Assembly (NCBI RefSeq): GCF_036417845.1
Contig: NC_090020.1
Coordinates: forward strand, 32,038,425 to 32,102,424
Direction: 5' to 3'
Length of the DNA: 64,000 nt
Source of the DNA: Apteryx mantelli
Taxonomy: Eukaryota; Chordata; Aves; Apterygiformes; Apterygidae
Made by a program: the position numbers and the translations under genes. This document shows, piece after piece, positions 7,983-51,932 of the stretch; the stretch's first letter is position 1; each line of letters starts with the position of its first letter. The notes under the pieces were generated by a model. That model did not search any database, was not told the DNA's origin, and saw only the letters and a list, made by a program, of their open reading frames with translations.

Positions 7983-10651
7983 CTGAGAGAAAACAAATCA
8001 GCAAAAAACAAGTAGAAATGCTTTTTGTAAGGGACTGTTTAAAAGAAGAATGTATTCAAACTTTGCAGAGAGAACTGAAATAGATAAAGGGTGAATCCAT
8101 CTTTCTTCTTGCTGACACTTCTCCAACGCGCTTTAGGAACCACCTCACTTGAGGGAAAACAACAGACTAACAATGCTAATCTCATCAAAATATTCTCCCC
8201 AACTAGTTATATCTGCCAGTCACTTACACACACACACAAAACAGTCTTAGACAAATAACCAATAGTTCATATACTGTATGGACCATCAAAATTTCAGTTA
8301 AAGATTTCAGGAGTAATGCAAAGCAGCCTTAATAGTTCAGCTTAAAAAAACAAAACAAAACAAAAACAAAAAAACCCTCTGTTTTCCCAAAAAGCAGTGC
8401 AAAGTTAAAACATGTCTAAATCTCATCCAAACAGTTCTGATATCACTGCACTTCCAGTGTTGATCCTAAGCTAACTCAGAAAGAAAACTCATCTTTCAAA
8501 TAATCAGTAAGTTTTCCTTTAAGATCCGGGAAGGAGCTCAAGAAGGACAACTCTGTCCAACTTTTATGCAAACAACTAACTGCACATACCTGTTACACAA
8601 AGATACACCTGTGAAGAACTCATTTTAAGTGAGAAAGCCTCCCTCCTCTTGATTGCTCAAAGAGCGGTGACAAAAGAAAATTCAACACTGTCTCACAGAT
8701 GCACACACAAATACAGACACATATAACATAAAGGTATCAAGTCAGATGTGGTCAAGGCTCTTCTTTTTTTTCTTTTGAAGTATCAATTTAATTTTTGCAG
8801 GACACTGTTCTCTTCCTTGCTGCCCAAGGGCCGTCAATGTCTTTCTCTTAACCCCAAATTATTAGTAACAAAGATAACTAGGGGGAAAAAAATCTCACCA
8901 GAATTTACCCAGGTAGGAAAACAAGGGGGTTCCTGATAGATTAAAAACTGGATATAATAAAAACCTGTGGCATCTGCCAAGACTCCGAGAAAATGGATGA
9001 ACTTTTGTTATAGCATAGTATGCTGCATATTACTGCCTGTCTACTCCATAGCATTGCCACAGAGAGTAAAAAAAAAAATGGATGAGGGGAGGGGAAGGAA
9101 AAATGTTTGCAGTTGAGCTGAAAGAGCACAGAAGAGCACTTACTCCATTTTAGTCATTACAGTAGCAAAGTCCTGCCAACAAATAAATGCATTAATACTG
9201 CTCCAGAAGCTCCACTTGTATCTTGGGCTGTGCTTTTATTCAGAGTGCATGATTTCACAGAAGTGAAAGCATTTTCAAGCTTACTTTGGGGGAACTGTAC
9301 AACATAATACCATTAATCAATAACAGCAAATGGAACTTTATTCCTCTAGGTTACTGAGATCAAGAATAAGTTGGTATGCTAATGATTTTTTTCCTCACTA
9401 TCAGCTGCAAATATGCTTGCACAGAAAAGCTTCAGTGGTCTTGACACAGCTACTAACAGCTGGTAGCCACTATCCTGAGGCCAGCGACTGAAGGAAAAAT
9501 AGGAGTTGAGCTAAGCCCCAGAATGATGGTATCATACCCCTCCCACCAAGGGAAACCTAAGACATACCCTTAACTGCATGTGCAAAGACATGTAGACTGC
9601 TTGAACAGTGCCAACTCTTAGATTTAACAGGAGTTTGATTTCTACAGCTGTCAAATCAGTTCTAAAATCCAGTTCAATTATGAGAGAATATTAATTCCAT
9701 ACAAAAAACTCTCATCAGCCATGTTTAATTGCCAGGTTTTCAGTTTTATTTTAAAAAAGAACCACCCTGCACACATAATCACAAACCACAAACTTTATTC
9801 ATGTAGTATTCAACTGCAGAATGCACGGTCCTGTAAGGATTACAAACCCAATCTCAAGAGCACAGAAAATACAGTTACCATTACAAAATACCATAGAGAG
9901 TAATTATCCCACATGAGTTTTGTTTGCTTTCCTTAGGAAAGGTTCCTAAGAAATACAATTTCAGATTGTTAGATACTCTCTGAATCAACTGATTTCCTTG
10001 TACTTGGTGGGAAGGAGTGAGTGCATGGAGAAGCTGCCTCGCATCCTTATCTGCCCAGCATATATTGAAAGAAGTTGATCTTACTCTATACTGAGCAAGA
10101 ATGGGTCATATAAGAAAATAATGTAGGGATATGAACAGATAGGTAGAGGCCCATTCAGATTCAAAATTAAGTGCTGATTTGCAACATACTGTGGGGAAAA
10201 ACAAGAAAAACAACAGGACAGCATCTGCCATGTCTGTAAACTGAAACTGAGAGTAAACTGAAATAGCGTAAAACAGTTGAATGCCTTGCATGAAGAGTAA
10301 GCACCACACACACAGGTCTTTTGGGTCCCCCACACCCCTTATAAACAGGCATTGCTCCTTCTCTCTCTACTGAAAAGCAACAACTGTAAAAATTGTGAAC
10401 GTTCCTGCGACACACCAAAGTTTCCAGCTCACCACATGCAGGGGGAAGCAGACGTCCTGCTGTGGGCCATGTTTATTAACCACACAAGTACAAAACCACA
10501 TGCAGAGCAATAGGAACATTACCTGCAAATCCATGCTGCGAGAACTTGCAATCCAGTAATTGAAGCCCAAAACGATGATACATGCCAGGAGCGCAGCTAC
10601 AAGAAGAGGTGGAGACTTCATCCCTCGGCAGCTGTTTCCTAGCCCTATCAT
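7803..10651 (-). CDS. GOLM1: GOLM1 (Golgi membrane protein 1, GP73), N-terminal part
   Basis: GOLM1 is a single-pass type II membrane protein of the cis/medial Golgi with a luminal coiled coil. Two coding exons are in the window: 10523-10651 (43 codons) and 7803-7982 (60 codons). Together they give the first 103 residues; the rest is beyond the left edge. Seen directly: a short cytosolic tail, a hydrophobic segment at about residues 16-35 (VAALLACIIVLGF), then a charged heptad-like region rich in E, K and Q. Residues 52-55 are RVRR, the position of the known furin-type cleavage site that releases soluble human GOLM1. The sequence is close to human throughout (for example MELEGRVRRAA and AVELKKNEFQGELEKQRE). 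Both introns use GT-AG and are phase 0. The start is the ATG at 10649-10651; a second in-frame ATG is at codon 11. Identity is secure; the missing C-terminus prevents any statement on the whole protein. Confidence 0.95.
7983..10522 (-). other. GOLM1: GOLM1 intron 2
   Basis: GT-AG intron of about 2.5 kb between the membrane-anchor exon and the coiled-coil exon. I see A-rich runs near 8345-8375 and no coding exon or recognisable repeat family. Confidence 0.8.
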
Positions 10652-14351: not shown

Positions 14352-14477
14352 ACCCAAGTCAAACAGATGGCAAATGTTTGTGCAATCACTCTTCCAGAAA
14401 AAGCTGAGGACTGGGGGTAAAAGGAGAGAGGTGATAAAACGGGTCAGACATAGAATTTTATTTTTAGTTTCATATAT

Positions 14478-15784
14478 AGATTTCTCATGTTCAGATGGAA
14501 GTGTCTGTGTTTCAGTTTGTGCCTGTTGCCTCGTGTCCTGTTGCTGGGCACCACTGAAAAGAGTCTGGTCCCATCCTCTCGACACCCTCCCTTCAGATAC
14601 TTGTACACGTTGATAAGATCTCCTCTCAGTCTTCTCTTCTCCAGGCTAAACAGGCCCAGCTCTCTCAGCCTTTCCTCATAAGAGAGATGCTCCAGGCCCC
14701 TAATCATCTTTGTAGCCCTTCGCTGGACTTGCTCCAGTAGTGCCACATCCCTCTTGTACTGGGGAGCCCAGAACTGGACGCAGTACTCCAGATGTGGCCT
14801 CACCAGGGCTGAGTAGAGGGGGAGAATCACCTCCCTCGACCTGCTGGCAACACTCTTCCTGATGCACCCCAGGATACCATTGGCCTTCTTGGCCACAGGG
14901 GCACATTGCTGCCTCATGCTTAACTTGGTGTCCACCAGCACTCCCAGGTCCTTCTCTGCAGAGCTGCTTTCCAGCAGGTCAACCCCCAACCTGTCCTGGT
15001 GCATGGGGTTATTCCTCCCTAGGTGCAGGACCCTGCACTTGCCTTTGTTGAACTTCATGAGGTTCCTCTCCGCCCACCTCTCCAGCCTGTCCAGGTCTCT
15101 CTGACTGGCAGCACAGCCCTCTGGTGTATCGGCCACTCCTCCGAGTTTTGTATCGTCAGCAAACTTGCTGAGGGTGCACTCTGTCCCTTCATCCAGGTCA
15201 TTGATGAAGAAGTTGAACAAGACTGGACCCAGTACTGACCCCTGGGGGACACCGCTAGCTACAGGCCTCCAACTAGACTCTCCACATCAGTGGATCACAA
15301 CCCTCTGAGCTCTGCCATTCAGCCAGTTCTCAAGCCACCTCACTGTCCACTCATCTAACCCACACTTCCTGAGCTTGTCTATGAGGATGTCATGGGAGAC
15401 AGTGCCAAAAGCCTTGCTGAAGTCAAGGTAGACAACATCCACTGCTCTCCCCTCATCTACCCAGCCAGTCATCCCATCATAGAAGGCTATCAGATTGGTT
15501 AGGCATGATTTCCCCTTGGTGAAGCCATGCTGACTACTCCTGATCACCTTCTTGTCCTCCACATGCTTGGAGATGGCCTCCAGGATGAGCTGCTCTATCA
15601 CCTTTCCAGGGATGGAGGTGAGGCTGACTGGCCTGTAGTTCCCTGGGTCCTCCTTCTTGCCCTTTTTGAAGACTGGGGTGACACTGGCTTTCTTCCAGTC
15701 TTCAGGCACCTCTCCTGTTCTCCATGACCTTTCCAAGATGATGGAGAGTGGCCTAGCAATGACATCCGCCAGCTCCCTCAGCAC
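14478..15784 (-). pseudogene. CR1 ORF2 reverse transcriptase domain (inactivated)
   Basis: Palm and fingers lie at 15784-15287 and the thumb region at 15220-14478. They are in the same frame and separated by one TGA. The catalytic FADD is intact in FADDTKLGG, whereas the first conserved aspartate block reads AFGTVSH instead of AFDTVSH. The frame runs into unrelated sequence at 14478, so the C-terminal end of ORF2 is missing. Confidence 0.9.
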
Positions 15785-16262
15785 TCATGGGTGCATCCCA
15801 TCAGGGCCCATGGATTTGTGGGTGTCAAGTTTGCTTAAATGATCTCTAACCCACTCCTCCTCCACCAAGGGAAAGTCTTCCTTTCTCCAGACTTCCTCTC
15901 TTGCCTCCAGGGTCTGGGGTTCCCGAGGGCTGGCCTGAGCAGTAAAGACCGAAGCAAGGAAGGCATCCAGTAACTCTGCCTTCTCTGCATCCTTCGTCAC
16001 CAGGGCACCCACCCCATCCAGCCAATGGGCCCACGTTTTCCCTAGTCTTCCTCTTGCTACTGATGTATTTGAAGAATCCCTTCTTGTTGTCCTTGACATC
16101 CCTTGCCAGATTTAATTCCAAACGGGCCTTAGCCTTCCTCATCACATCTCTGCATACTCTGACAACGTTCCTATATTCCTTCCAAGTGGCCTGTCCCCCT
16201 TTCCACTTTCTGTAGACTTCCTTCTTCTGGTTGAGTTTTGCCAGAGCTCCTTGCTCATCCAT
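15785..16262 (-). pseudogene. CR1 ORF2 linker between endonuclease and reverse transcriptase
   Basis: The upper part (16262 down to about 16030) reads [20 protein letters not shown]. The lower part continues one frame away with [20 protein letters not shown] and SMGPDGMHP, ending at a TGA at 15785. A single small indel near 16025-16040 explains the frame change. Confidence 0.8.
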
Positions 16263-16480
16263 GCAGGTCTCCTGCCTCCTTTGCTTGACTTCCTACTCAT
16301 AGGGATGCACCGCTCTTGAGCCTGGAGGAGGTTAAGTTTGAATATTAACCAGCTCTCTTGGACTCCCCTTCCTCCTAGGGCCCTAACCCATGGGATTCCT
16401 CCAAGTAGGTCCCTGAAGAGGCCAAAGTTTGCTCTCCTGAAGTCCAGGGTTGCGATCCTACTTGGTGCCCTGCTGCCTCC

Positions 16481-17040
16481 TCACAGGATCCTGAACTCCG
16501 CCATCTCATGGTCCCTGCAGCCAAGGCTGCCCCCGACCTTCACACCTTCCACCAGTCCTTCTTTGTTTGTTAGTACGAGGTCCAGCAGCACACCTCTCCT
16601 TGTTGGCTCCTCCACCACCTGTGTCAAGAAGTTGTCACCAATGCTCTGCAGGAACCTCCAGGACTGTTTGTGCCTAGCTGTGTTGTCTTTCCAGCAGATA
16701 TTGGGGTGGTTGAAGTCACCCATGAGAACCAGGGCCTGGGATTGTGAGGCTACTTCCAGCTGTCTGTAGAAGGCCTCATCGACTTCCTCTTCCTGATCAG
16801 GTGGCCTGTAGTAAACACCCACAACAGTGTCACCCATGCTAGCCTGCCCTTTAATTCTTACCCAGAAGCTCTCGACTCGCTCTTCATCCACCCCTAGGCA
16901 CAGCTCAATACATTCCAGTTTCTCTCTCACATGAAGAGCAACTCCACCACCTCGCTTTCCTGGTCTGTCTTTCCTGGCCTGTCTTTCCTGAAAAGCACGT
17001 AGCCATCCACGACAGCACTCCAGTTAACATGAAAGCGATC
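16481..17040 (-). pseudogene. CR1 ORF2 endonuclease domain fragment
   Basis: Contains [47 protein letters not shown] and [12 protein letters not shown], typical of the CR1 endonuclease. The reading frame is broken near 16956-16983 by a 14-nt tandem duplication. The N-terminal part of the domain is absent (5' truncation). Confidence 0.88.
16956..16983 (-). repeat. 14-nt tandem duplication within CR1
   Basis: tttcctggtctgtc is followed directly by tttcctggcctgtc and then a partial third copy (tttcctg). The unit is not a multiple of three, so the duplication shifts the endonuclease frame. Confidence 0.9.
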
Positions 17041-18749: not shown

Positions 18750-19570
18750 AGAAGCCGCCCATCAGCTGTGCGGCGGCGGAGGTCTCGGCACCTCCGCTCT
18801 CAAGGGGCTACGCAGAACTAGAAGAACAAAATCAAGTGACCTGCAGTTCAGGAAGAGGCAGACGAGTGGTTTCAGACGTCGTTACTGCCCTCTGTGATTT
18901 TTCCACCCTCCGGTGAGCACCAGGAGCTGCCGCGGTTCCAAGGCGCTGCTGCCGCGCGACAGACCGGCACGGCGAGGCCGCGGGCGGCGGAGCGCGCTGC
19001 GCTGCTCTGCGCCGCTCTGCGCTGCCTCCGCCCTCCCAGCTGCCTCCCCGCGGCCCGGGCGCGCCCCGCCCCGCGCCGCGCCGCGGAGCCCCGCTGCCCC
19101 CAGCCGGCCCGTCCCGCCGCCTGCCCCGCTTCGGCCAGCCGCGAGCAGGCGCGGCCTGCGGCCCCAAGGGCTCAGCGCTCGCAGCCGCCAGCGCCCGGCC
19201 CCAGACCCGGCCCGGCGCAGCCGGCGCTGCCCGCCGCGGCACGGCGCGGCGCGGCGCGGCACGGGGCCGCCCAGCGCGCCGACCCCCGCAGCCCCGCGCC
19301 GCCGAGCCGGACCCCGCGGAGCCGCTCGGCTGCGCTCCCGCCCCGGCGCCCTCCGCTCCGCTCCGCTCCCCGCGGGCGGCCGCTGCGCCGCAGAGGCCTC
19401 ACCTGCGGCGGGCTGGCACGGGACGCGCCGCCAGGAGGCCGCCGGGGCTGCGCTCAACGCGCCGTGCCCCTGCGCCGCCGCCCCGCGGCGCGGCACGGCG
19501 CGGGCAGCCGCTGCTCCCCGCGGCGGCGCCGGGCAGCGCAGCGCAGGAAGCGGGGCGGGCAGGGGGCGGC

Positions 19571-19640
19571 GGGCAGCAGCGGCGGCGCCGCGGGCAGCAG
19601 CGGCGGCGCCGCGGGCAGCAGCGGCGGCGCCGCGGGCAGC
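19571..19640. repeat. 21-nt GC-rich tandem repeat, 3.3 copies
   Basis: The unit gggcagcagcggcggcgccg(c) occurs three times without change at 19571-19633, followed by a partial fourth copy. It lies inside the GOLM1 CpG island, probably at or just upstream of the transcription start. Confidence 0.9.
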
Positions 19641-19792
19641 GCGGCAGCCCGGTGGCCGCGGCTTCCCCGCGCGGGCCGCGCTCCGCCCCGCGCCCCCCGC
19701 TCCGCGCTCGTACCTCCACGGCGTGTGCGCGGCAAGTGAGGGGGTCCTCCGCCCGCGCGCCGTGCTGGCGGCTGCGCTCTGCCCCCGCGGGC

Positions 19793-19836
19793 TGGGGCGG
19801 GGGCGGGGGCGGGGGCGGGGCGGGGCGGGGCGGGGT
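19793..19836 (+). promoter_or_regulatory. G-rich tract with overlapping GC boxes, G-quadruplex-prone
   Basis: A run of ggggc units with G-runs of four to five on the plus strand. It contains many GGGCGG cores of the SP1/KLF type and enough G-runs to fold into G-quadruplexes. It sits at the upstream side of the GOLM1 island. Confidence 0.75.
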
Positions 19837-22800
19837 GGCGCCGCCGGGCCCGCGCGCGGGGAGGTCGCGGCCGGCTTCGCCGAGCTCCTCGTGTCCCGGC
19901 GTCACTTGCAGATCCCGGAAAGCCACGGGGGGGGAAAAGCACGGTGTCCAGCATCGGAGGCAAAATAAAACTGAAAAAGACCCGTCGGTACAGTCTTGGG
20001 AACAGCCAGACGGATGAAGCTTCTCTTAGTTCAAAAATGTTGCAATAAAAAATATTAGCCATTTCTTCCATTATTATTAACCCAGTTGAATGCTTTACAC
20101 CATCTAGTTATGAATATTGTTTCTGGGTGTTAGCTTTTCTAAGTGGAATGTAAACAATCAGAGGGAAAGCAGAGTATAAAAACTGCTGTAATGTCATTTG
20201 CAGGCTATGAAATACGCAAAGGAATCTAAGCATCTTTGGTAGAAGCAATTATTTTGAGATTAAATATCCTTGATGGATTTGATCTGCTAGATTTAATAAG
20301 TAAATTGAAATTTCTAACTGAACAAAGGGTGCAAACTTAATAAAAGTGATCTTTCACATATGTCAGATTTCAAGAAAGATGAGGCTGAATTTAAACCTTT
20401 CTTCCATTTCTTACTCAAAAACCATTTTAAAATGGATAAACCCCCCATTCTAGCATTCACCAGAGAACAGATTTCCTTTTTTAAAAATATATACAACAGC
20501 TTCGTCTAAATCAGAAACAGGACTTTGGTTACAAATTTAAAACCATGTTGGGTTACATTCTTTTTCTCACCTACTTAAGGAGATATGTAATTTCCTGAGT
20601 GGGAGCTTTCTTCTTTTTTTAAGGAAAAACGGATCCTTTTTCAGCAGCCCAGCACATCTACAGTTATATTATGACTAAAAACAGGGTTTCAAATGGTTAG
20701 GGAACTGAATTGCTTGTGAGATTCATAAAAACACAGTGAGAGTCAGAAAATGGCTCATTCATCTTTGTCATTAAGACAAGATGATGTTAAAAATAAAAGC
20801 TAGTAAAACTATTCATTAGGAATTATTGTGCAAGCAGAAAACACGAGGACTGTCTGCAGCTGTGATCATTGATTAACTAATTTTGCCCTGCTTGCTTACA
20901 GCCAGCTAAAAATTCTGGAGACATAACCCCATTGTTTTCGGAGTCTTAGGAGGCTGTGTTGAAGAGCAGCAGCTCTGTCCAAAAGATCAGGGGAAAAAAG
21001 CAAAAAAATCACTTAGATATAGACCTATATATAAATCTTATAAGACTGAAAACCCTATTGACTATAAAACCTATCTTTAACAGGGATGGATTAAGTCCAT
21101 CACTGTCTGCTATATGGATCCAAGAAGAAATTAACTTACCAGAGCTGAAAGATACAACATTATGCAGTTTGTGACAAGTGATTCTAAGAACATTTAAACA
21201 CACTAATAGTGATGACTCGTTCAAAATATTTATCTGCAGTCCTTACCAGTGTTTCAGAAAATATCAGTAACTGATACTCACAAAGAGGAATTTGTGAAAA
21301 GCTCAGACACTGCAGAAAATTGTTCCTATGTAAAAAACTGCTCTATTTATGCTTCATAGCCATCCCTACTTTCCTTTTAAGTTAATACTTTAAACTAGAA
21401 TTAAAACCCATCTTGTACAAAAATTAGTAGAATATGCAACATTAAAGTTTATTTTTATTTAAAAAATGAAGTCATCTATTTTAACAAAGACGACAGAAAA
21501 ATAGAAGTTTTGTGAGTTTGTCTTTAAATATATTTTGGTTTTGTCTTTAAACGTAAATGTGGTAAAGCAAAGAATTCTTGAAAGAAAACCACACATTTTT
21601 GTTCAGAAGAGCAAAATGGATGGAATACAGCAGCCAGACAACTCAACATGAGCTCCTGTTATATATGCACAAGAATGCTGTGATCTTTAAGAACGATATT
21701 CTAACACTTCTTTGGAGCCAGTAAGAATGCACATCTAAATGCATTAAACTGCAATAAAGTTAAGTGTCTCAGCAAGATCTGTTTGGCCCGGTACTAGAAG
21801 CGATAAATTTAATAATGGATTGTTTGTATAGGCTTCATGAGACAGAGGGACCCTCAATCAGGGACAGAGCTGGAGTTGAGAATGAAGCCAAATTTGTACT
21901 TGAGACCACTATACACTAGAGCTGTGTGTTAGGCACTTACTGCTGCCAAAATAGTGCATCTGAAGAGCATGGTCTAGAAGTAGTGTAATTTACAGAGGGT
22001 GATGGAAGTGGATCACCTGCATAATTTGTACATTCAACAGATATTTGTGAAAATCAAAACTACTGATTATGCTGAAGTAAGAAAATTAGACATGTATTGA
22101 GATAGAGGGATTAGAAGTACCCAAATCTGTAAAATACCAGCTACTGGTAGCTGGCATAATCAAGGAAACCAGGATGTGTTCACATGGGAAAAAGTCAACA
22201 AAACAATGTAAAAGAAAAAATATTGTTTTATCCTTGTTGGAAAAATTAAAACTGACTGTACTGCACATTTTTTAAACACTAAGAGTTACCACGTGAAAGA
22301 TAACAGTATTCAATGCAAGTTTTTATTAAATAAGTCTTTGTCATGTTGCTAGGACTCTGCATGGGAACTTTACCATAAGCAGTAGGTTCTGATAGATGTT
22401 AAAATGTCCCTAAAAAAACACCTGAGGTACAAAGTACTTTGCAGCTGATGTTATGGAAAGAGTACATCTAGTCTTTCTTAAACCCCTGGACAAATAGATC
22501 AGAAGAGTTAATCCATGTGAAAAAATTGTTCTGAAGTGTAGAAGTACTATGTCTCCAGGGAGTAACTGACATATAACTGCTTGACATGTCCACTCTACTG
22601 TTTTAAATATTACCAAGCCAGTGTTATGTGGCTGTGCTTTATGTAGCATTCTGATATTTCTATTAACGAACAAAATTAATGCAGAAAGAAGTACATATTT
22701 CTCTTTTCTATTTTAGAAAATATCCCTTCTGATTTTGCACTGACCTTATCTTATTAACATAATTAAGCAGAAGGCTGCAAATTATTTATGTTTCTAACAC

Positions 22801-33100: not shown

Positions 33101-34477
33101 CTGTGGGTTTTCATTGCCTTTGATGGGTTTCAGATCACTGAAAAGTAACATGAAGGAGTACACCACCACCTAGCTGCAAGTCTCTGGGTGGTGATACTAC
33201 AAAGCCATGCAAAGCACAACCCAGCTGAGGTTTTCACTCAGTTCCTTCCCACACTGCCTTGTGCTTCTGAAAAGAACTCTTTACAGCTTTAGAGTAAATC
33301 TGAAATCCTTACATAGCTCTCACAAAGTGGGGTTTCTGTGAGAATGACTAGAGCTGGGTAGCTAAGGGAGCTTTAGCCCTTTTTCCTCACATATCTTCAG
33401 AAACACCATCTGGTGCAGCAGAGGTTCATCCAGGCTTGGTATCTCAGCCATGCAGAAATGACTGTCCTCATCTGCTGTGTTTAACAGTCACATAGGTCTC
33501 CAGGGAATCACCTACTTGCATGATGAAGACAGAGAAAGAGCACAATTAGGTAACTACCAGAAGCAGAGACCTCTGAGCAGCTTGGAGAGAACAGCCATGG
33601 GTGTTATGGGCACCCATAAAGAGGGGAGTCTTTGTGGACAGGCAACACCTCCAAGGCTAATCAAAACTGACAATCAGGCAAGACAGATATGTTGCTAACA
33701 CTTAGGGATGGGGCTGTGAGTTTGGCAGAGAAATCTTCTCTCTAATCCAGACTGAGGGAATCCTGTTGTAAAACAGGAGAGCCTACTGGATGAAAGGAGA
33801 AGGGACAGCAAGAAAGAGAAATACAGCTGCGAAATTCACCTCTGAGGCAAGTAAAGCTGAAAGAGGGGCTGTCCCCTCAGTATTTGCAAGTGAAGGCTGA
33901 CAAGAACAGACAGTGAGAGAAAAAGTGATTAAAAAACCCTCAAGGTAACATTTGGAAAGTAGGTAGAAGATAATGTAGAAACAGAGAAGCAAGAAATAAG
34001 AAAACATGAGGAGTGAGAGAAATGAAAAGACGGAAGAGGAAGGATAGACTTGAGTTCCTCAGTCTGGGGAGGATTGCACAGCACAGGGCACAACCTGTCT
34101 AGGCAAGTGAGCAGTCTGACCTAGAACATACCTGCGCTCAGGATCACATCTGACCAGGGACATCTCAGACAACTGAGCCAAGCTCCCTAAACTGGAAATT
34201 ATGTATCAACAGAAAGACATACTTGTTATATAAACAGTAACTGTTATTTTCTTGGAGAGACAAAGAAACATGTGCAGCTTGTTTGTCTGAAGGCTTAGAT
34301 TTCCCTCGAGCTACTCTATTTCAGGGGAACAGTGAAATCTTTGGGAAAGAGAGTCATTTTTTTTCTGCTCTATTTGTACAGCATGAGGAGGTTATGCTCT
34401 AGGCTCAATTTCAAGCTACCACCACAGTCTAAAGAATAATTAATAATAACTTTTTAATTCCATAAGGCACTTACAGT

Positions 34478-34483
34478 TTTATT
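34478..34483 (-). terminator. Polyadenylation signal AATAAA for the unknown gene
   Basis: The minus-strand hexamer AATAAA lies 17 nt past the stop codon at 34501-34503. If used, the 3' UTR would be very short. Its position supports 34501 being the true 3' end of the gene. Confidence 0.45.
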
Positions 34484-34500: not shown

Positions 34501-34748
34501 TCATTCCCATTTAAATTGACGACATAGAACAGGATATGCAGGATAAACAGAGACAATTATTGAATCCTTAAAAATCAAAGGCAGGATGTAGTCTGTCTTC
34601 TTAGGTGTTCTCTTTAATATCTTGAAAGATCTGTAATTTGCTTCTCTCCAAACAATCTGGAAAGGCTTCTTCCTCTTCACCATGCTTTTATACAATTTCC
34701 ATTGCAGTCCCCTCAGATTGTGGAAAAACACATATGGTGTTTCTGACA
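34501..34748 (-). CDS. Unknown gene, terminal coding exon
   Basis: The acceptor is ccttattgccag ending at 34749. The exon opens with TG, which completes a GTG codon with the G left by the previous exon, then 81 codons and a TGA at 34501-34503. It encodes SETPYVFFHNLRGLQWKLYK, then a strongly basic stretch (KRKKPFQ, KRTPKK), and ends in CRQFKWE. Confidence 0.6.
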
Positions 34749-37700
34749 CTGGCAATAAGGTATGTATTATGTTAGCATATATGTAAAACTACTGTTTCTC
34801 AGAAAAAGTAGAAGTACACTGTAACAATGCACAACACTGACTTCCACATGCTAGAACTTAAATTGAAGCTCAGACCCAAGTCTGAAGTGAGGTATCCACT
34901 CTAGTAGGTTTTTTTTTTTTTTAAAGCAACATAGGTCTAGTCCTGCTCCCACTGAAATGGGTGGAGAAATTCTTACTGATTACAAAGTCAGGAGGAAAAA
35001 TAATTCACACATCATCATTATCAACACCACTGTTTGGCATCCGTGTTGCCAGTTTCAGCCAGTAGGTCAAAAAAGTAACTAGACATCAAAACTTACTGAC
35101 TGCACCCCCTCATGGATGTGGAATGATGGCACATCCGTGAAGACACATTTGTACTGATGCTGCCTATGTTACATCTGTTATTGGAAGTTAAAAATTGATC
35201 TTATCTCAGCTCAGCCCTGTTTCATCCTGTTCCCATGTTAAATCCTCCTTGGTCATCTAGGTATGGATTTTGTTGCTGTTGGCCTCCAGGGAACATCTTG
35301 ATGGAGAAAGCATGAGAACCAATCGAAACCTGCTGCCTAAATGTTCATCTGCTTCTTGAGGACCATAAGGAAGTCATTACTATGGCAGTCTTCAAGTGCA
35401 AAGTATCCTCCCTCAAAATTACTGTAACTCATGGTAGAAACCATTTTGTGTCTCCTCTAAATTGTTCCTTGGAGATTTCAGGTTATATCTGAGAATTCAG
35501 AAGCTATAAAGACGGCTTTAATTTTTCCTGAGTTAAGTAGGAAGGCCACCCAGTGCCATTAAACTGGCATTTTTCTTAGACACACATACAAAGAGGAAGA
35601 GTAAGATGTGAAACAATTACAAAGCCCAAAAGTACTTTGAAATCATGGGTATGGGGCAGGGAGTAATATGGTTAGTGCTGCTTTGGCATAGATTCTCCAC
35701 TCTTACATTCAAGTGGGAGCAAAGACTGTCTACTATGGGAGATTCTCCAAGCAGAATGGTCACAGTGTATGGAAACCATCAGCTGTAGCAAATCCACACA
35801 CACACAAAAAAAGTCTCTTTAAAATACTTCAGTGCAGAAGTAAGAGTTAACAACAAGGCGACGACATTCAAGCACTACTGATTTGAGAATCCACTGCTTT
35901 GCTTAAACCAGGCCAAAATTGTTTATAAGGATCCAACTCCCACTGATACCCAAGTAAAGATTCTTACTGAATTCAGTGTCAGGAGCAACTAACAAGCTTA
36001 GGAGAATTACTCGACTTTGTGCACAAGGACCAAACATAGTACACCATGGATGTAAGCAAATTCCCAAATGCCTATCATGCTATTGTTTACCTTTTAGATA
36101 TTTGTTACAAGTTTTTTTTTTTTTTACAGAAAAATAAATATTTGGTTTAAATAAATATAGCAGATTTATTGTTTACTTTTGCTTTGACAAGCCTATTTTT
36201 CCATTTTCCAAATATTCAGGCTTCTATTATTTGGAAATGATCTCAGAGTATATCATCTTAGTTCTCATATTCAGGAACTGTCTCTTGAAAGTCAGTCTCA
36301 TTATTTTCCTTCTTTTAATTTTTATTCTGTTGTTCCTGGCTAATCCTATATATGCTATTCAGAGACATCCATAAATAAATATCAGTACAGACTGCTCACC
36401 TTCAGAAGTGTGTACTTTAGAAATGGAAGAAGTCTCAAATGACGGCTGGGTTTTTTTCTCCTTCCTGAAATGCTGCATCTTGCATAATATCTCCCCATTG
36501 AAACATTTGTGTTGGATCAAAGAAACTGGCATAGGAAGGCAATTTTTGATCAAAAACACATATGGGAGTATAAGCTTTTGCAGCGGGTCACAAACGTAAG
36601 ATTTTTTGTGTCCTCCAGCAACAGTTATTTTTGACTTTGATTTAGACAGCTGTTTGAAGTCCTCAGATAAGCAACCGTCTGGGATTCTCATTTCTGTTCT
36701 TGGTGATTCAGCATTTTCCTTTGCAACATCTATTTGTGAACAACTGTTACTAATAGCCTCACCAGAGAACAAGCTTTGTTTTTCACATGCTGCAGTATCC
36801 CAGTGGTTAGATTTTACTGCTGACTGTATAGTATGGAAGAGAGAGATGTGTGTTTGCTCCAAAATTAACTGGTACCTTTGCTGCTCATTTTTAATATTTG
36901 TGAGAGATGACAACAATTTTGACACCTGAAAAAATACAGGACATTTTCCACATTAATGGCCTGGACTGTAAAAATGAACTCTGTGGATGAATTTCAAGTT
37001 TTCTTTTTCAGTTATTACTACTTATATTTTTTTAAAAAGCAGAAATTCTGATAAGAGTCACAGTTTTGTAGCCATTGATCTGTATACAATACCAAAGAAT
37101 CATCCTTGCCACAAAGATCTTGCAATCTAAACATCGGCTAGAAAATAATGAAAGGCTAGAGATGAAGATAAGAGCAAGATGATCATATAAGATATAATGA
37201 GCAGTGCCCCCAGCACTCCACAGTAATGACAGTATTGACAAAGGCAAGCTCTTTCGATTGCCTTTGTACCATCATACAAAGATGTTTCTTTTCTGATGTT
37301 TGTAACAGACTGCAAATGTCAACTACTCCATGAAAAATCTCTAATATTTCTACTATATGCCTCAATTAATAAAATTGTTCAAAACTAGTTTAAAAACATA
37401 ATTTGTCTGGAACAATGTGTAAGGCTACTTGTATAAAACAGATCACTAAGGGTGAGAAAGGGAACCTAAGGAAACTGTACCATTTTGTATCCCACGTAGC
37501 TTGTGTCAGTACCCAGTGCCAGTCAAACCCTTATAGGAGGTTGTAAAGATGATGACCTAAATAACAAGCAGGATGTGCTATCTGCTTGCTGGCATACACT
37601 ATGAGATACTGGATCCAAATATTATTCATTACAAGTCATGTTATGTCACAGGAAACTCAGAGAAACTGAGCCTTTCTATATAGACATAAACAGCATTTTT

Positions 37701-38431
37701 AGATTAGAAACTAGTCAAAGCAGAATGCTTGTTTTCTGGATTGCAACTGAAAAAAAAAAGTAATTTTAGTTTATTCAGATAGGACTCAAAGTTTATGAAA
37801 CGAAAAAACAAGCAAGCTGCTTCCATTAAGATCAAAGTGCATTGAATTGCAAAGAATCTAAGGTAAAAAGCAGAATCAGATACCTGGCTCTTACTGAGCT
37901 TGTGACCAAATGTACTGATACATCAGCACCACTGAGAAAGAAACAAAATGATCATTCAGTACTTACTAAGCACATACCACAAAAAAATATTTTTCTCAGA
38001 ACAGACGCAAGTGATAGGAGCTGAAATACTGTGCTCATTAATACTGAACTTGTAAGAGTAAATTGCTGTAAGTTCTGATAGGAATTCTTTTTGACTATAA
38101 AAATCAGCACAAATGTACTTGTGATTTAAAAATTCATTTGTATTTTCTTGTTAAACATTGTTACATCAAAGCCTAGAATTTTCTCACTCTGACAATGTCG
38201 CTATATACACTGAAGAGGGTTTTGAACAAATAATCATTCAGTACTGTAGCCAATGTAGCCAATCATTTGGCATCTAGCCATCATACAAAAAAAAAAAAGA
38301 AAGGAAGTAGATGACAAAAAACCTACAAACTAATTTTATACTGTTAAAGTATTCACTTTCCAATCAGGAAAGAATAATTGTTTCTTTTGCTCTATATCTT
38401 CTGATAGTACATCATTCCTAGTTTGACCCAT
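34501..38431 (-). CDS. Uncharacterised three-exon gene (about 282 residues)
   Basis: I assembled this gene from three minus-strand exons: 38357-38431 (start), 36400-36925 and 34501-34748 (stop). Each intron has GT-AG ends. The phases agree without adjustment: exon 1 ends in phase 0, exon 2 leaves one base, and exon 3 opens with the two bases needed. The product would have about 282 residues: MGQTRNDVLSEDIEQKK at the start, a helical LLSSLTNIKNEQQRYQLILE segment, a Ser-rich middle, and a basic C-terminal region (SMVKRKKPFQIVWREANYRS). It has no signal peptide or membrane segment that I can see, and no recognised domain. A CpG island lies just upstream and an AATAAA 17 nt after the stop. Human C9orf153 sits in the same position between GOLM1 and ISCA1, but I see no sequence resemblance. 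The start context lacks a purine at -3. Gene reality is likely; function is unknown. Confidence 0.6.
34749..36399 (-). other. Intron 2 of the unknown gene
   Basis: GT-AG intron of about 1.65 kb with donor GAAG/gtgagc at 36399. No further exon is needed to keep phase, and I see none. Confidence 0.5.
36400..36925 (-). CDS. Unknown gene, large internal exon
   Basis: The acceptor cctgtattttttcag abuts 36925 and the donor TCTGAAG/gtgagc follows 36400. The exon is 526 nt: 175 open codons plus one base. The open frame starts exactly at the acceptor, not at an ATG, which argues for a real exon. It contains SKLLSSLTNIKNEQQRYQL, LFHTIQSAVKSNHWD, KQLSKSKSKITVAGG and KLILPYVFLIKNCLP. Confidence 0.62.
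36926..38356 (-). other. Intron 1 of the unknown gene
   Basis: GT-AG intron of about 1.4 kb with donor GGAAA/gtgaat at 38356. No other coding segment is apparent inside it. Confidence 0.5.
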
Positions 38432-38446
38432 TGGACCTTCACTGTG
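38357..38446 (-). CDS. Unknown gene, exon with the start codon
   Basis: The acceptor ttttcttttttcag ends at 38447 and the exon is exactly 90 nt. The whole exon is open in the coding frame. I place the start at the ATG at 38429-38431 (MGQTRNDVLSED), with +4 G but C at -3. Five codons (HSEGP) lie upstream of the ATG without a stop, so an upstream coding exon cannot be excluded. A non-coding first exon would lie in the CpG island above 38.76 kb; a candidate donor is TTTGTG/gtgagc near 38740. Confidence 0.58.
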
Positions 38447-38759
38447 CTGAAAAAAGAAAAGCAACTCTAATTAGTACATAAAAACGTGAAAATGATAGAG
38501 AAACAGGATTAAGAGGAAAAGATGAACAGCAAAAATACAAATGTCCCGAATTAGGTAGAGAGTGAGTGAGTCAATTTCATATTTCCCAGACAGGCTCACA
38601 GGAGTTAATTACGGCCCTTTTCTGTTACACATCATAGATCTTCGCCCATCAGAGTCTAAAACCTTCTCAAGAAAGGCAGAACTTCTCACTGTCCTCGTGA
38701 GGTGATTCCCAGGCCAAGGGACTTCAGCACCAAGCTCACCACAAAGCACTAAATCTTTC

Positions 38760-39390
38760 TTTCCTGGCCTCCCCCCCCCCCCCCCGCGCATGCAGCTCTC
38801 CCGCACCGGGAGCTGGGGGCAAGCCGAGGAGCCCCCAGCAGCCTCTCGCCCAGGGAGCGGGCCCGCGGGACGCCCACAGCCCGCGGCCCGTCCCGCCCGC
38901 CGTGGCCACAGCCCCGGGCGCCGCCGCCCGCCGCGCGCCCCGAGGGAGGGGCGGGGCTGAGCTAATGAGGCGGGGCGGAAGGCCACCTCTGCAAGGAGCC
39001 GCCGGGCAGAGCCCCGCCACCCCGCGCCCGGCGCGCCCGGCTCCCCCCCAGCCGCCGCCGGAGCCGCCGCGGCTGCCGGCCGACGCCGCCGCCGCCTCCC
39101 TCACAGAGCCCGCGCCGCGGGGGCGGGGCTGCGGGCGAGGGAGCGCCCCGATTGGTGCCCCAGGGGGAGGGGAGGGGCCGGAGCGTCAGGGAGCCAATAG
39201 CTGCTCGGGGCGGTCCGGCGGGGCGCCGGAGGGAGCCCAGGTGCCGTTGGGGCAGCGCGGCCCGGGGAGGAGAAGGGCGGACGCCATGGCTGCCGCTGGC
39301 GGCGCCGTGGTGGTCCGGCGCCTCCTTGCCTCCGTTTGGCTGCAGTCCTTCCTCTCCGTCCCCTCCCGCAGGAGGGAAGGGTGAGGCGTG
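38760..39390. promoter_or_regulatory. CpG island, probable bidirectional promoter
   Basis: Dense CpG, repeated GC boxes (ggggcgggg near 38950 and 39120), CCAAT elements in both orientations (attggt near 39150, ccaat near 39195), and a C15 tract at 38771-38785. It is about 300 nt upstream of the first identified exon of the minus-strand unknown gene. It also contains a plus-strand ATG in an excellent context followed by a donor. Islands of this kind mark constitutive promoters in birds as in mammals. Confidence 0.7.
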
Positions 39391-39747
39391 GTCCCTCCTA
39401 CACATCCAGCAGCAAAGGGAGCTCCTGCCTTAGGGCAATGTGGTTCCCAGCTCCTATTTAATGGGTGTAACCGAACAGGCTTCGCCTGGGGGAGTAACAC
39501 TGCAGGCTTCTGGGCTATGAAAAATGAGCTTCAGTAAACGGCAGAGCAGATTGCCACGAGGACGGATACAATACTTAGTATTGTCAGCTGACGTTTGGTA
39601 TTTATTTGGCCAAATATTTTACCTGGCATGCACCCTCAGGCTAAAAATTCCTAATTTTCTGTATATTTTCACTCTCCTCCCATCTCCAGCCCAAGAGGCC
39701 GGTTTCTTGAATTAAGAGGGCCACGCTCTGCACTGAACCTCCTTTAA
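39286..39747 (+). CDS. Candidate spliced short ORF with a mitochondrial-presequence-like start
   Basis: Inside the CpG island the ATG at 39286-39288 sits in a near-ideal context (gcggacgccATGG). It opens 31 codons beginning MAAAGGAVVVRRLLASVW, Arg-rich with no acidic residue until the last codon, ending at the donor GAAGG/gtgagg at 39380. A plausible second exon begins after catctccag at 39690 and keeps the frame for 18 codons to a TAA at 39745-39747, giving 50 residues in total. The first exon resembles a mitochondrial targeting sequence. I cannot name a gene, find no nearby polyadenylation signal, and the second exon may be chance. It could equally be the start of a divergent non-coding transcript. 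Confidence 0.3.
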
Positions 39748-49100: not shown

Positions 49101-51932
49101 AAAGTAATAACTATCAGCACTTCTGTAGGTGCTCGGTATCATAAAAGTCAGAGTTAAATTTCAAAGACAGACGTTTTTGTGACTTCAAATCAAAGTTTAT
49201 TCAAATGCTAGGTCAGACGCTATTTTAAGATTACTGACAGTAACTTAATTATGAAGTTGCGACACCAAGCCAAGGGCAGTTACTAAATTTTCATGGAACT
49301 CCTATAACGGCTACCAGAAAACTTTCATTTGATCCGAAGTTCTGAAAAAATTGCTTTGTTTGTGATCTTCATTACCTAAAAATCAGTCTTCTCCCTCTCC
49401 TTTTTGGCAAGTATGTTTATTCATTTATTGCAGTAACCAATGTAAAAGGCCAGCCTAGTCAATATGTTTTAACTATTTGCCATTATACAACATTATGCTG
49501 TATGTCAGACAAAAAGAACATCTGTGTAAGTAAAGACCTGAGAAATGGCTGTAGGGACACATGAACTGGAAACCTAAGTCTTCCAAAAGTATCTGCACCT
49601 CTGCTCAAACATGTATGTTTCACTATATAATTAGAGAGGAAAAGTACAGTAGCCTCTGTAAAAGTATTATGATAAAAATGTATCAATAGTTGTCATCAAA
49701 TGGGATCTCAGACAAGTAGCATTTGTTCTTTTCAGATTAAATACCCTTCTCTACAAGGGCAGCTAGAAACAATAGGTTAGGAAACAAAAAACAAAAAACC
49801 AAAACCCCACCATTTTATAACAAGGGTATGACTGATCAGCTAAGCTGCAGGCTCAGGGCTTCCTTAGGATGGTTTCAAATGTTAAAAAGAAGAGTCTATT
49901 CAGTTGCCATCACGCAGGAAGAGAAACAATACGTCTTGTACAAAAGTTAAATAAGACATAATCTTCCTCTTGCTGTGGAAAAAAAAACCTAGTGCTTGTT
50001 TTTACGATGCTAAGAAGGAAAATGGTATGTGTTTTTTCCCAAGAAGAAAAGATGACAAGTTCAATCAGTTACTTGGTGAAAAGTGTATTATCATTTACAA
50101 AAATACACTGTCTGGCAAGGTTCGTAAAAGTTACATCTGTTTTCAATGGGTATGAATCTAATATTATAGTTATATATTTCACAGCCAGAATTCCTTCAAG
50201 AACTTAATTACATCTTCAAATCAACAGTTGGAGATCTCTGGCCCTACCAGAAGTTACCACCTAAGCCATGCTAGAATAGTTAATTAAAATCTAGATTAGA
50301 AATATTTTGAAGTTTGAATAAATTTTTAAATTTTACCTATTTCAAAAATAACTGTAAAGTGAAGTGTCATCACAGTAAGTCATTTCCTGGATTTCATTTT
50401 TATATAAAAGTAAAGCTTGACAGATAAACAAGCTGGTACATTCCCCTCCAAAAAGAGGCATCAACATCTCTAAATTGTTCGGTATTTATTTCAAGCTACT
50501 AGATGAGCCAGAAATGCTTCACAATCATGAATAGTGCTAATACCTTAACACAATCTACAAGATGGCTCTGTTTGCACTTACATGGTCAGGTTTATCTTTA
50601 AGAAGCTGTTTTATCTTCTGAACTGCTGATGGGGTCTGAAAAACAGAAGTGTATTCATCAGTTTGAAACTCTCTCTTTTTTTTTTAATAGACCTAAGTAT
50701 ATTACACATGCTGTAATACATGTAAGTCACACACTGCAAATAATGCAAGAAATTTTAATTCCAACATCATGCAATCAAATTTTATCTTAGTTTACAGTTA
50801 AGTTTTGTCTCCTGCCTGCAAAGTCCACTTACAGAATCAGCCATCTGTCAGTGCAGACTAGCCTTTGTTCTACCTGAAACTGATGCCTGATCTCAAGTTA
50901 ACATATTCTTCTATAAAAAAGTAAATGCTGGATCTAATCCATGCAAAATACAGTAACTGTTTACTCCCCTCCCCATCCCTGCTGGCAGCAGATAGTTCAA
51001 GAATTTCAGCCCTTAATATTGCCTTTTTTTTTTTTTTTGGCAAAACTACTACTACAGTTTAACTAAGTAGTTCAATTCTAGCCAAACTTCTGCCGCATAA
51101 ACATTTCTGTGCCATACTGATTTTTGTCTGTAACGTATATCTCCTTCTCCTCTCTTCCCATTGACTTAGAGGTGAGCTGTGACTTTACAGCAGAGAATCT
51201 CATAGCTCATGTAGATCTGGTTGCTGCAGAAATGCCAGACTACATACACAAGTATATATAAAGGCTTCCCTTGCATACAAGTTTCCAAGTTACTAAAAGC
51301 TTCGGCTAGATTTACCTTTCCTAGTTAGCAGTATTAGAAACCCTTTTCTAGCTAACAGTGCTAACGTTCAATTGCTACAGAATCGCTGGCTACAGGACCG
51401 ACCCGCACTGACAAATCACTGAACCAGGCACGCTCTGTCCGCCCCGTCAGTGCGGGTACCGTACCTCCCTCCGCAGTAAGCCCTCCCGGCAGCACAACAC
51501 AGCCGCAACGAGCAAATGCCCTTCCTCAGGTAGCAGAGGGACACGGAGTGCCCTTGCCAACAACCTACCCGCCCGTTTCTGCAGACACGGGATTTCTGCC
51601 CTCCGACACGGGACGGAGCTCTCGGGGTGACCGCGCACGCCCCCCCCCCCGCCCCAGCGCGCCCCCGGGCCCCCCACCGACAGCCCCGCGCGGCTAACGG
51701 CGCCCCGCCGCCTCCGGCCTGGCGCGGCGCGGCCCGCCCGGGGGAGGCCCCGCTCCCCGGCCCGTGGCGCAGCTCCGGCGCCCGCTGCTCGGGGGCGGAG
51801 GCAGAGGCCGGAGGGGCCGGGGCCCGCGCCCGCGCCCGCCGCCGCACTGACCAGGGTGAGGGCGGCGCGCGTGGCCTGGAGCTTCCTCTTGCTCACGGCG
51901 CGCACCGTGGCCCGCACCACCGAGGAGGCCAT
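46006..51932 (-). CDS. ISCA1: ISCA1, mitochondrial iron-sulfur cluster assembly protein 1 (complete)
   Basis: ISCA1 is an A-type carrier that acts with ISCA2 and IBA57 in late mitochondrial assembly of [4Fe-4S] clusters. All four coding exons are present: 51852-51932, 50582-50635, 48531-48636 and 46006-46154. They give 129 residues, the same length as human, with consistent phases and GT-AG introns. The three conserved cluster-binding cysteines are present at 57 (RTRGCNG), 121 and 123 (GTCGCGESFNI at the C-terminus). The Arg/Lys-rich N-terminus (VRATVRAVSKRKLQ) is the mitochondrial targeting region. The protein is nearly identical to human outside the first residues. The start ATG is 51930-51932, in a CpG island. 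Identity is secure. Confidence 0.97.
46155..48530 (-). other. ISCA1: ISCA1 intron 3
   Basis: GT-AG intron of about 2.4 kb. It has short A-rich runs, for example near 47706-47720, and no recognisable exon or repeat family. Confidence 0.7.
48531..48636 (-). CDS. ISCA1: ISCA1 coding exon 3
   Basis: The exon is 106 nt, 35 codons plus one base, between ttttatttcag and CAAGATG/gtgagt. It encodes VGVKVGVRTRGCNGLSYTLE onward through DSDEEVVQD and carries Cys57. Confidence 0.97.
48637..50581 (-). other. ISCA1: ISCA1 intron 2
   Basis: GT-AG intron of about 1.9 kb. I see nothing supportable inside it. Confidence 0.7.
50582..50635 (-). CDS. ISCA1: ISCA1 coding exon 2 (54-nt microexon)
   Basis: An 18-codon exon, phase 0 at both ends, between ctgtttttcag and GACCAT/gtaagt. 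It encodes TPSAVQKIKQLLKDKPDH. It is too short to appear as a separate open frame but is nearly identical to the human segment. Confidence 0.97.
50636..51851 (-). other. ISCA1: ISCA1 intron 1
   Basis: GT-AG intron of about 1.2 kb whose first part lies in the CpG island. A T15 tract is near 51025-51039. The long frames near 51416-51847 reflect GC composition. Confidence 0.7.

Follow-up and report, generated by a model that had tools for sequence, protein, structure and literature searches.

Does the interval between ISCA1 and GOLM1 hold a protein-coding gene in the bird Apteryx mantelli, and could this gene be the counterpart of C9orf153? The question concerns positions 34,501 to 38,446 of a 64,000-nucleotide stretch of contig NC_090020.1 (assembly GCF_036417845.1, positions 32,038,425 to 32,102,424 of the forward strand), here called the window, where an initial annotation had described an uncharacterised protein gene of three exons on the minus strand. 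The open frame and its location are direct observations, and the candidate is likely to be a real gene, either fast-evolving or young. Since the second exon lies far outside chance, an uncharacterised protein gene remains the best interpretation; that part of the annotation stands, while two of the splice sites are poor and the codon composition resembles that of non-coding DNA.

Joining the minus-strand segments 38446–38357, 36925–36400 and 34748–34501 reproduced the annotated single open frame of about 282 residues, with intron phases 0 and then 1. The candidate protein has 282 residues, a mass of 32.9 kDa and an isoelectric point (pI) of 9.5, and it runs from an ATG at 38431–38429 to a TGA at 34503–34501. 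Its C-terminal 82 residues (201–282) have a pI of 10.2, with 17 lysines and arginines against 5 aspartates and glutamates. The AATAAA described 17 nucleotides past the stop was found at 34483–34478 and the upstream CpG island at about 38.7–39.4 kb (Table 1). Exon 2 is the core of the finding, and a search of the bird's own genome found its sequence in a single copy. It had been said to open exactly at its acceptor, which proved incorrect: the actual frame extends from 36952 to 36362 (197 codons), beginning 27 nucleotides before the acceptor and continuing 38 nucleotides beyond the donor.

The weight of the argument rests on this exon, in which 175 codons without a stop, at 38% GC, are bounded by a strong acceptor on one side and a very strong donor on the other. 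Chance expectation was obtained from 102.2 Mb of simulated strand (fourth-order Markov model trained on the AT-rich stretches of L013–L032), screened for exons of at least 500 nucleotides with acceptor and donor scores of at least 5.0 and 7.0 (strict) or 2.0 and 3.5 (lax). All thresholds were chosen after the candidate had been seen, and many windows had been scanned to arrive at the candidate itself. With the strict thresholds, which correspond to the observed splice strengths, the simulated strand contained no exon. Under the lax screen, 628 kb of real strand (the window and L013–L037, both strands) yielded 44 exon models irrespective of GC content, against 7 in the reversed-sequence control. 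Only two of these were below 45% GC, candidate exon 2 and a 1,139-nucleotide exon that looks like TUT7, and the reversed control had none. Exon 2 is well beyond chance. The only other AT-rich frame of such length in the 200 kb sampled was a 194-codon open frame on the minus strand of L029 (2519–3100, 33% GC); this frame yielded no splice-bounded exon of at least 500 nucleotides and had a chance-like codon score.

The support for the flanking exons is graded. Downstream of a given exon 2, the 600 simulated stretches yielded a comparable exon 3 in 7 cases at the observed distance and in 16 cases within 4 kb, rising to 65 when no poly(A) signal was required, and the simulations thus support exon 3 moderately. 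They support exon 1 weakly, as its like was found in 23 of 600 simulated stretches, or 176 with a laxer acceptor. When the upper bound for strict exons (3/102.2 Mb) is multiplied by the simulation fractions of exons 3 and 1, fewer than about 0.1 strict chains per whole genome are expected by chance.

These figures also bear on the explanation that no protein is made at all, the chain being either a non-coding RNA driven by the CpG island, with exon 2 open by chance, or a coincidence in a large genome. At the lax thresholds the 102.2 Mb of simulated strand gave 7 exon models and 4 chains. Relisted with the same seed, the exon models fell in four separate places, two of which also had an exon 3. 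This fraction exceeds the rate in the 600-run simulations and is less favourable to exon 3; the numbers are small and no explanation for the difference is offered. Scaled up to a 1.5-Gb genome that was AT-rich throughout, four places per 102.2 Mb of strand would become about 120, and a chance occurrence somewhere in the genome is possible under the lax thresholds or with the two-of-four fraction. Against this stand the empty strict screen, the real sequence below 45% GC with its empty reversed control, and exon 3, which in the 600-run simulations contributes a further factor of about 0.01–0.03. The joint simulation leaves the odds where they stood, since it cuts both ways, giving fewer chance exons but more of them with an exon 3.

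Besides the lax rate, the splice sites and the codon signal include results that weigh against a real coding gene. The initial annotation had given all segments good splice sites, and scoring with matrices drawn from general knowledge bore this out for three of the five. The acceptors of exon 1 (score 6.6) and exon 2 (5.2) are equalled or exceeded once per 2,262 and 1,071 bases, respectively, and the exon 2 donor (7.1) once per 22,000 bases. In the AT-rich sequence of L013–L032, 11 of 12,014 GT sites reached the score of this donor and 226 of 16,315 AG sites that of the exon 2 acceptor. The exon 1 donor and the exon 3 acceptor are poor, with scores of 0.4 and -0.9, and sites as good as these occur once per 230 and once per 73 bases.

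Neither a codon-usage nor a codon-position signature was found in the candidate frame. Compared with composition-matched stop-free sequences, its z score was -0.08 (-0.07 in a second run), against 4.77 for the long TUT7 exon in the composition-controlled test. The z scores ran from -0.21 to 1.6 in five stretches of ISCA1, GOLM1, TUT7 and ISOC1 and from -0.89 to 1.17 in three stretches of kinases; with eight known stretches spanning -0.89 to 1.6, the test has little power for exons that are short or rich in GC. The mean for 141 AT-rich open reading frames (ORFs), real exons still included, was -0.34 (standard deviation 0.80). At codon position 1 the candidate has T 0.27 and G 0.21, while the TUT7 exon has T 0.15 and G 0.38. 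The weighted means of chance ORFs were 0.285 and 0.193, respectively (168 ORFs of at least 80 codons and below 43% GC in L013–L037, a set that still holds real exons). Also the raw codon scores of exon 2 (-0.119) and exon 3 (-0.154) in the claimed frame were lower than those of another frame (-0.082 and -0.031), and only in exon 1 did the claimed frame rank best.

The lack of a codon signal, the two weak splice sites and the frequency of exon 1 with a laxer acceptor are all consistent with the non-coding or coincidental chain. So is the scarcity of stops on either strand of the exon 2 stretch, whose antisense frame is nearly open with 1 stop in 174 codons. As a coding frame the antisense, with its 109-codon ORF, was rejected, its raw score of -0.171 being below that of the sense frame. 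The absence of strict exons from the simulations and the added factor from exon 3 speak on the other side, and on balance this explanation appears improbable. Taken by itself, the codon composition would point either to a young gene, to very fast evolution with drifted composition, or to an untranslated frame.

A protein-coding gene unrelated to C9orf153 would reconcile such composition with translation. It would be young and lineage-specific, born of non-coding sequence that lay downstream of a CpG-island promoter, and would retain the composition of translated AT-rich DNA. This agrees with an exon 2 that is beyond chance yet noise-like in its codon positions and with the scarcity of glycine, alanine, aspartate, glutamate and valine, which together make up 20.9% of the candidate residues. 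It agrees also with the searches for relatives, in which the statement that the protein matches no known family held across Pfam cut-offs, solved structures and the paralogues of the bird's own genome. No Pfam family reached its cut-off, the best match being DUF3496 (E 0.082, 13.7 bits against a cut-off of 23.3). Among solved structures (PDB) there was no significant match, Ran being the best (E 0.12 over 43 residues), and both of these were judged to be chance. The own genome contained no paralogue, the next best match having E 1.9. A viral origin was rejected since viral_contigs gave no match. Modelling with AlphaFold, proposed together with the initial annotation, gave no usable result: the AlphaFold2 models made without an alignment reached mean predicted local distance difference test (pLDDT) scores of 36.1 (exon 2) and 49.6 (exon 3), too low to justify searching for similar folds. 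Set against a young gene are its size, 282 residues in three coding exons being large for a newborn gene, and its occupation of the slot and orientation of C9orf153, and we regard this origin as unlikely, although clearly worth keeping in view.

The location fits that of C9orf153. Matches to ISCA1 were found on the minus strand at 51932–51852, 50677–50561, 48639–48529 and 46155–46009, and matches to GOLM1, also on the minus strand, at 10651–10505 and 7985–7803, in both cases with assumed sequences of these proteins as queries. The candidate thus lies between the two genes, as had been annotated. A zinc-knuckle frame near 59 kb and the 1,139-nucleotide exon in L033, outside the window, belong to what we take to be TUT7. 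The presumed ISCA1, GOLM1 and TUT7 are all on the minus strand around the candidate. The human gene order is presumably ISCA1–C9orf153–GOLM1. Being directly downstream of ISCA1, on the same strand and before GOLM1, the candidate has the slot and the orientation of mammalian C9orf153. A human ISCA1–C9orf153 chimeric RNA is listed as validated in PMC11919593; C9orf153 therefore lies close to ISCA1, which fits the order given above.

The sequence comparison is less clear. The family of C9orf153 is DUF5532 (Pfam PF17673, cut-off 26.4 bits), and the query used here, which we assume to represent the 107 residues of the human protein, scores 144.6 bits on this profile over residues 1–90. The profile did not match the candidate at E up to 10, whether as the whole protein, the exon 2 part, the exon 3 part or five fragments. 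In the own genome it had four matches at E up to 10, the best with 20.2 bits, none over the cut-off and none in the window. The candidate is not placed in DUF5532 because no match to the defining profile was found. The initial annotation had seen no similarity to C9orf153, and at the level of the profile this stands, while pairwise alignment with the assumed human sequence was borderline. The best local alignment joins C9orf153 residues 20–61 with candidate residues 165–212, across the junction of exons 2 and 3. A score of at least 45, that of this alignment, occurred in 19 of 2000 shuffles and in none of 329 control pieces taken from AT-rich ORFs. With the same query blastp gave E 0.004 and phmmer E 0.005, in a database consisting of this single protein. 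In end-free global alignment, 44 of 2000 shuffles reached the score for query residues 1–90 and 22 of 2000 that for the C-terminal parts.

Under two other scoring schemes the observed alignment score was reached by 15 and by 3 of the 329 controls. Like the profile results, several further comparisons speak against this identity: in end-free global alignment the score was reached by 435 of 2000 shuffles for the whole length (all 107 residues), 653 for the N-terminal comparison and 984 for another part. The pairwise similarity is a borderline lead and not a demonstration. Searches with the same query for C9orf153-like exons gave a best E of 0.81 in the window, inside the CR1 element, and of 3.5 in 17–46 kb, and both were rejected. 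Taken together, position and alignment make a heavily diverged bird counterpart of C9orf153 the leading identity of a real spliced gene, at somewhat below an even chance.

The exons could also be part of a longer or different gene, either a read-through isoform of ISCA1 or a gene with other true first and last exons. The human chimeric RNA (PMC11919593) would be a precedent for read-through, and the weakness of the exon 1 donor and of the exon 3 acceptor leaves room for other ends. Exon 2 has a second good donor (last exon base 36763, score 6.3), which could give a shorter form of the exon, and a donor-like ACT/GTAAGT occurs on the minus strand beyond the stop (score 2.3, last exon base 34475). 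The GT of the latter is 3 nucleotides past the AATAAA (34470–34483 for both); if U1 bound at this site, the poly(A) signal could be silenced or the last exon lengthened. On the other hand, candidate exon 2 is the sole internal exon of at least 500 nucleotides and below 45% GC to pass the screen in the window, a screen that leaves room for shorter exons. At the downstream edge of the CpG island the minus strand has a donor, GTG/GTGAGC (score 4.8, last exon base 38740), 293 nucleotides from the exon 1 acceptor, which could splice a non-coding first exon to exon 1. If it is used, an in-frame TAG (read by hand) stands just 5' of the ATG at 38431, which speaks against this alternative. A longer or different gene is very improbable.

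For the preferred reading, a real gene that may be the counterpart of C9orf153, we infer a course of expression in which each step, from transcription and translation to orthology, spermatid expression and function, is conditional. Transcription would start from the CpG island at 38.7–39.4 kb on the minus strand with a non-coding first exon, and the three coding exons (38446–38357, 36925–36400 and 34748–34501) would follow to give the basic 282-residue protein. The gene would have been kept in the C9orf153 slot and orientation directly downstream of ISCA1. Human C9orf153 has been located in spermatids according to PMC10257997, the one underlying study, which the review PMC11961434 cites, and the literature searched contained no joint mention of C9orf153 and chicken. 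By analogy the product may be a small basic protein expressed in spermatids, its lysine-rich C-terminus binding nucleic acid or another acidic partner and its N-terminal part contacting another protein, a role suggested by this analogy and by composition. A bird counterpart about three times as long and beyond profile recognition would imply an amniote-wide, extremely fast-evolving germline gene at the ISCA1 locus, Z-linked in birds; this wider proposal is offered tentatively and is rather more doubtful than not.

Table 1. Positions of the candidate exons and of other features in the window.
Feature	Position	Strand	Remarks
Putative first coding exon	38357..38446	minus	Strong acceptor; ATG at 38431–38429; weak donor AAA/GTGAAT
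Putative exon 2	36400..36925	minus	526 nucleotides, 175 open codons; strong acceptor, very strong donor
Putative last coding exon	34501..34748	minus	TGA stop; weak acceptor; codes for the basic C-terminal part (82 residues)
AATAAA poly(A) signal	34478..34483	minus	17 nucleotides 3' of the stop
CpG island, probable promoter	38701..39400		200-base windows: GC 0.72–0.85, CpG observed/expected 0.62–0.94
CR1-type long interspersed nuclear element, remnant	14447–17023	minus	Judged by eye; frames (280, 165, 148 and 180 codons) like reverse transcriptase and endonuclease
Very GC-rich block	18900–20100		84% GC in 19001–20000; 21-bp tandem repeats at 19569–19645

On the plus strand the CpG island contains a donor, AGG/GTGAGG (39378–39386, score 6.0), just past a short ATG-initiated frame (MAAAGGAVVVRRLL...). 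No other plus-strand donor from 38.6 to 39.7 kb reaches a score of 3.5, and the island may be bidirectional. Elsewhere in the window, the very GC-rich block is probably the promoter region of GOLM1, and the CR1-type remnant is situated between this block, at 19 kb, and the first coding exon of GOLM1. Of 20 samples of 10 kb taken at random from the contig, five (L015, L019, L020, L030 and L032) had frames that resemble the remnant by eye. No RNA family matched within the 64-kb window at gathering scores. Judging from its length of 88.1 Mb, its gene content with this block and its CR1 elements, the contig may be the Z chromosome, in which case the candidate gene would be Z-linked.

If real, the gene would add an unnamed member to the well-studied block of TUT7, ISCA1 and GOLM1 and would offer a clear example of orthology that shows in position but not in recognisable similarity of sequence. 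Such a case separates a gene that is absent from birds from one that is too diverged to be seen. With its near-random composition it would also be useful for testing how young genes can be distinguished from old genes that evolve fast.

Three known systems can be compared with the candidate. The large acidic exon of TUT7 (L033) serves as the local yardstick: like exon 2 it is a long open internal exon, AT-rich (39% GC), from the same neighbourhood and detected in the same screen, but it has the strong coding signature that the candidate is without. Vertebrate de novo or lineage-specific orphan genes resemble the candidate in its single copy, its non-coding-like composition and its lack of relatives in Pfam, PDB and the own genome, whereas they are usually shorter and have fewer exons. 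Human C9orf153, presumably a small, basic and uncharacterised protein, differs in length, the candidate being about 2.8 times as long if the human length is as we take it to be; the two share the slot and orientation beside ISCA1, and the candidate is likewise basic and uncharacterised.

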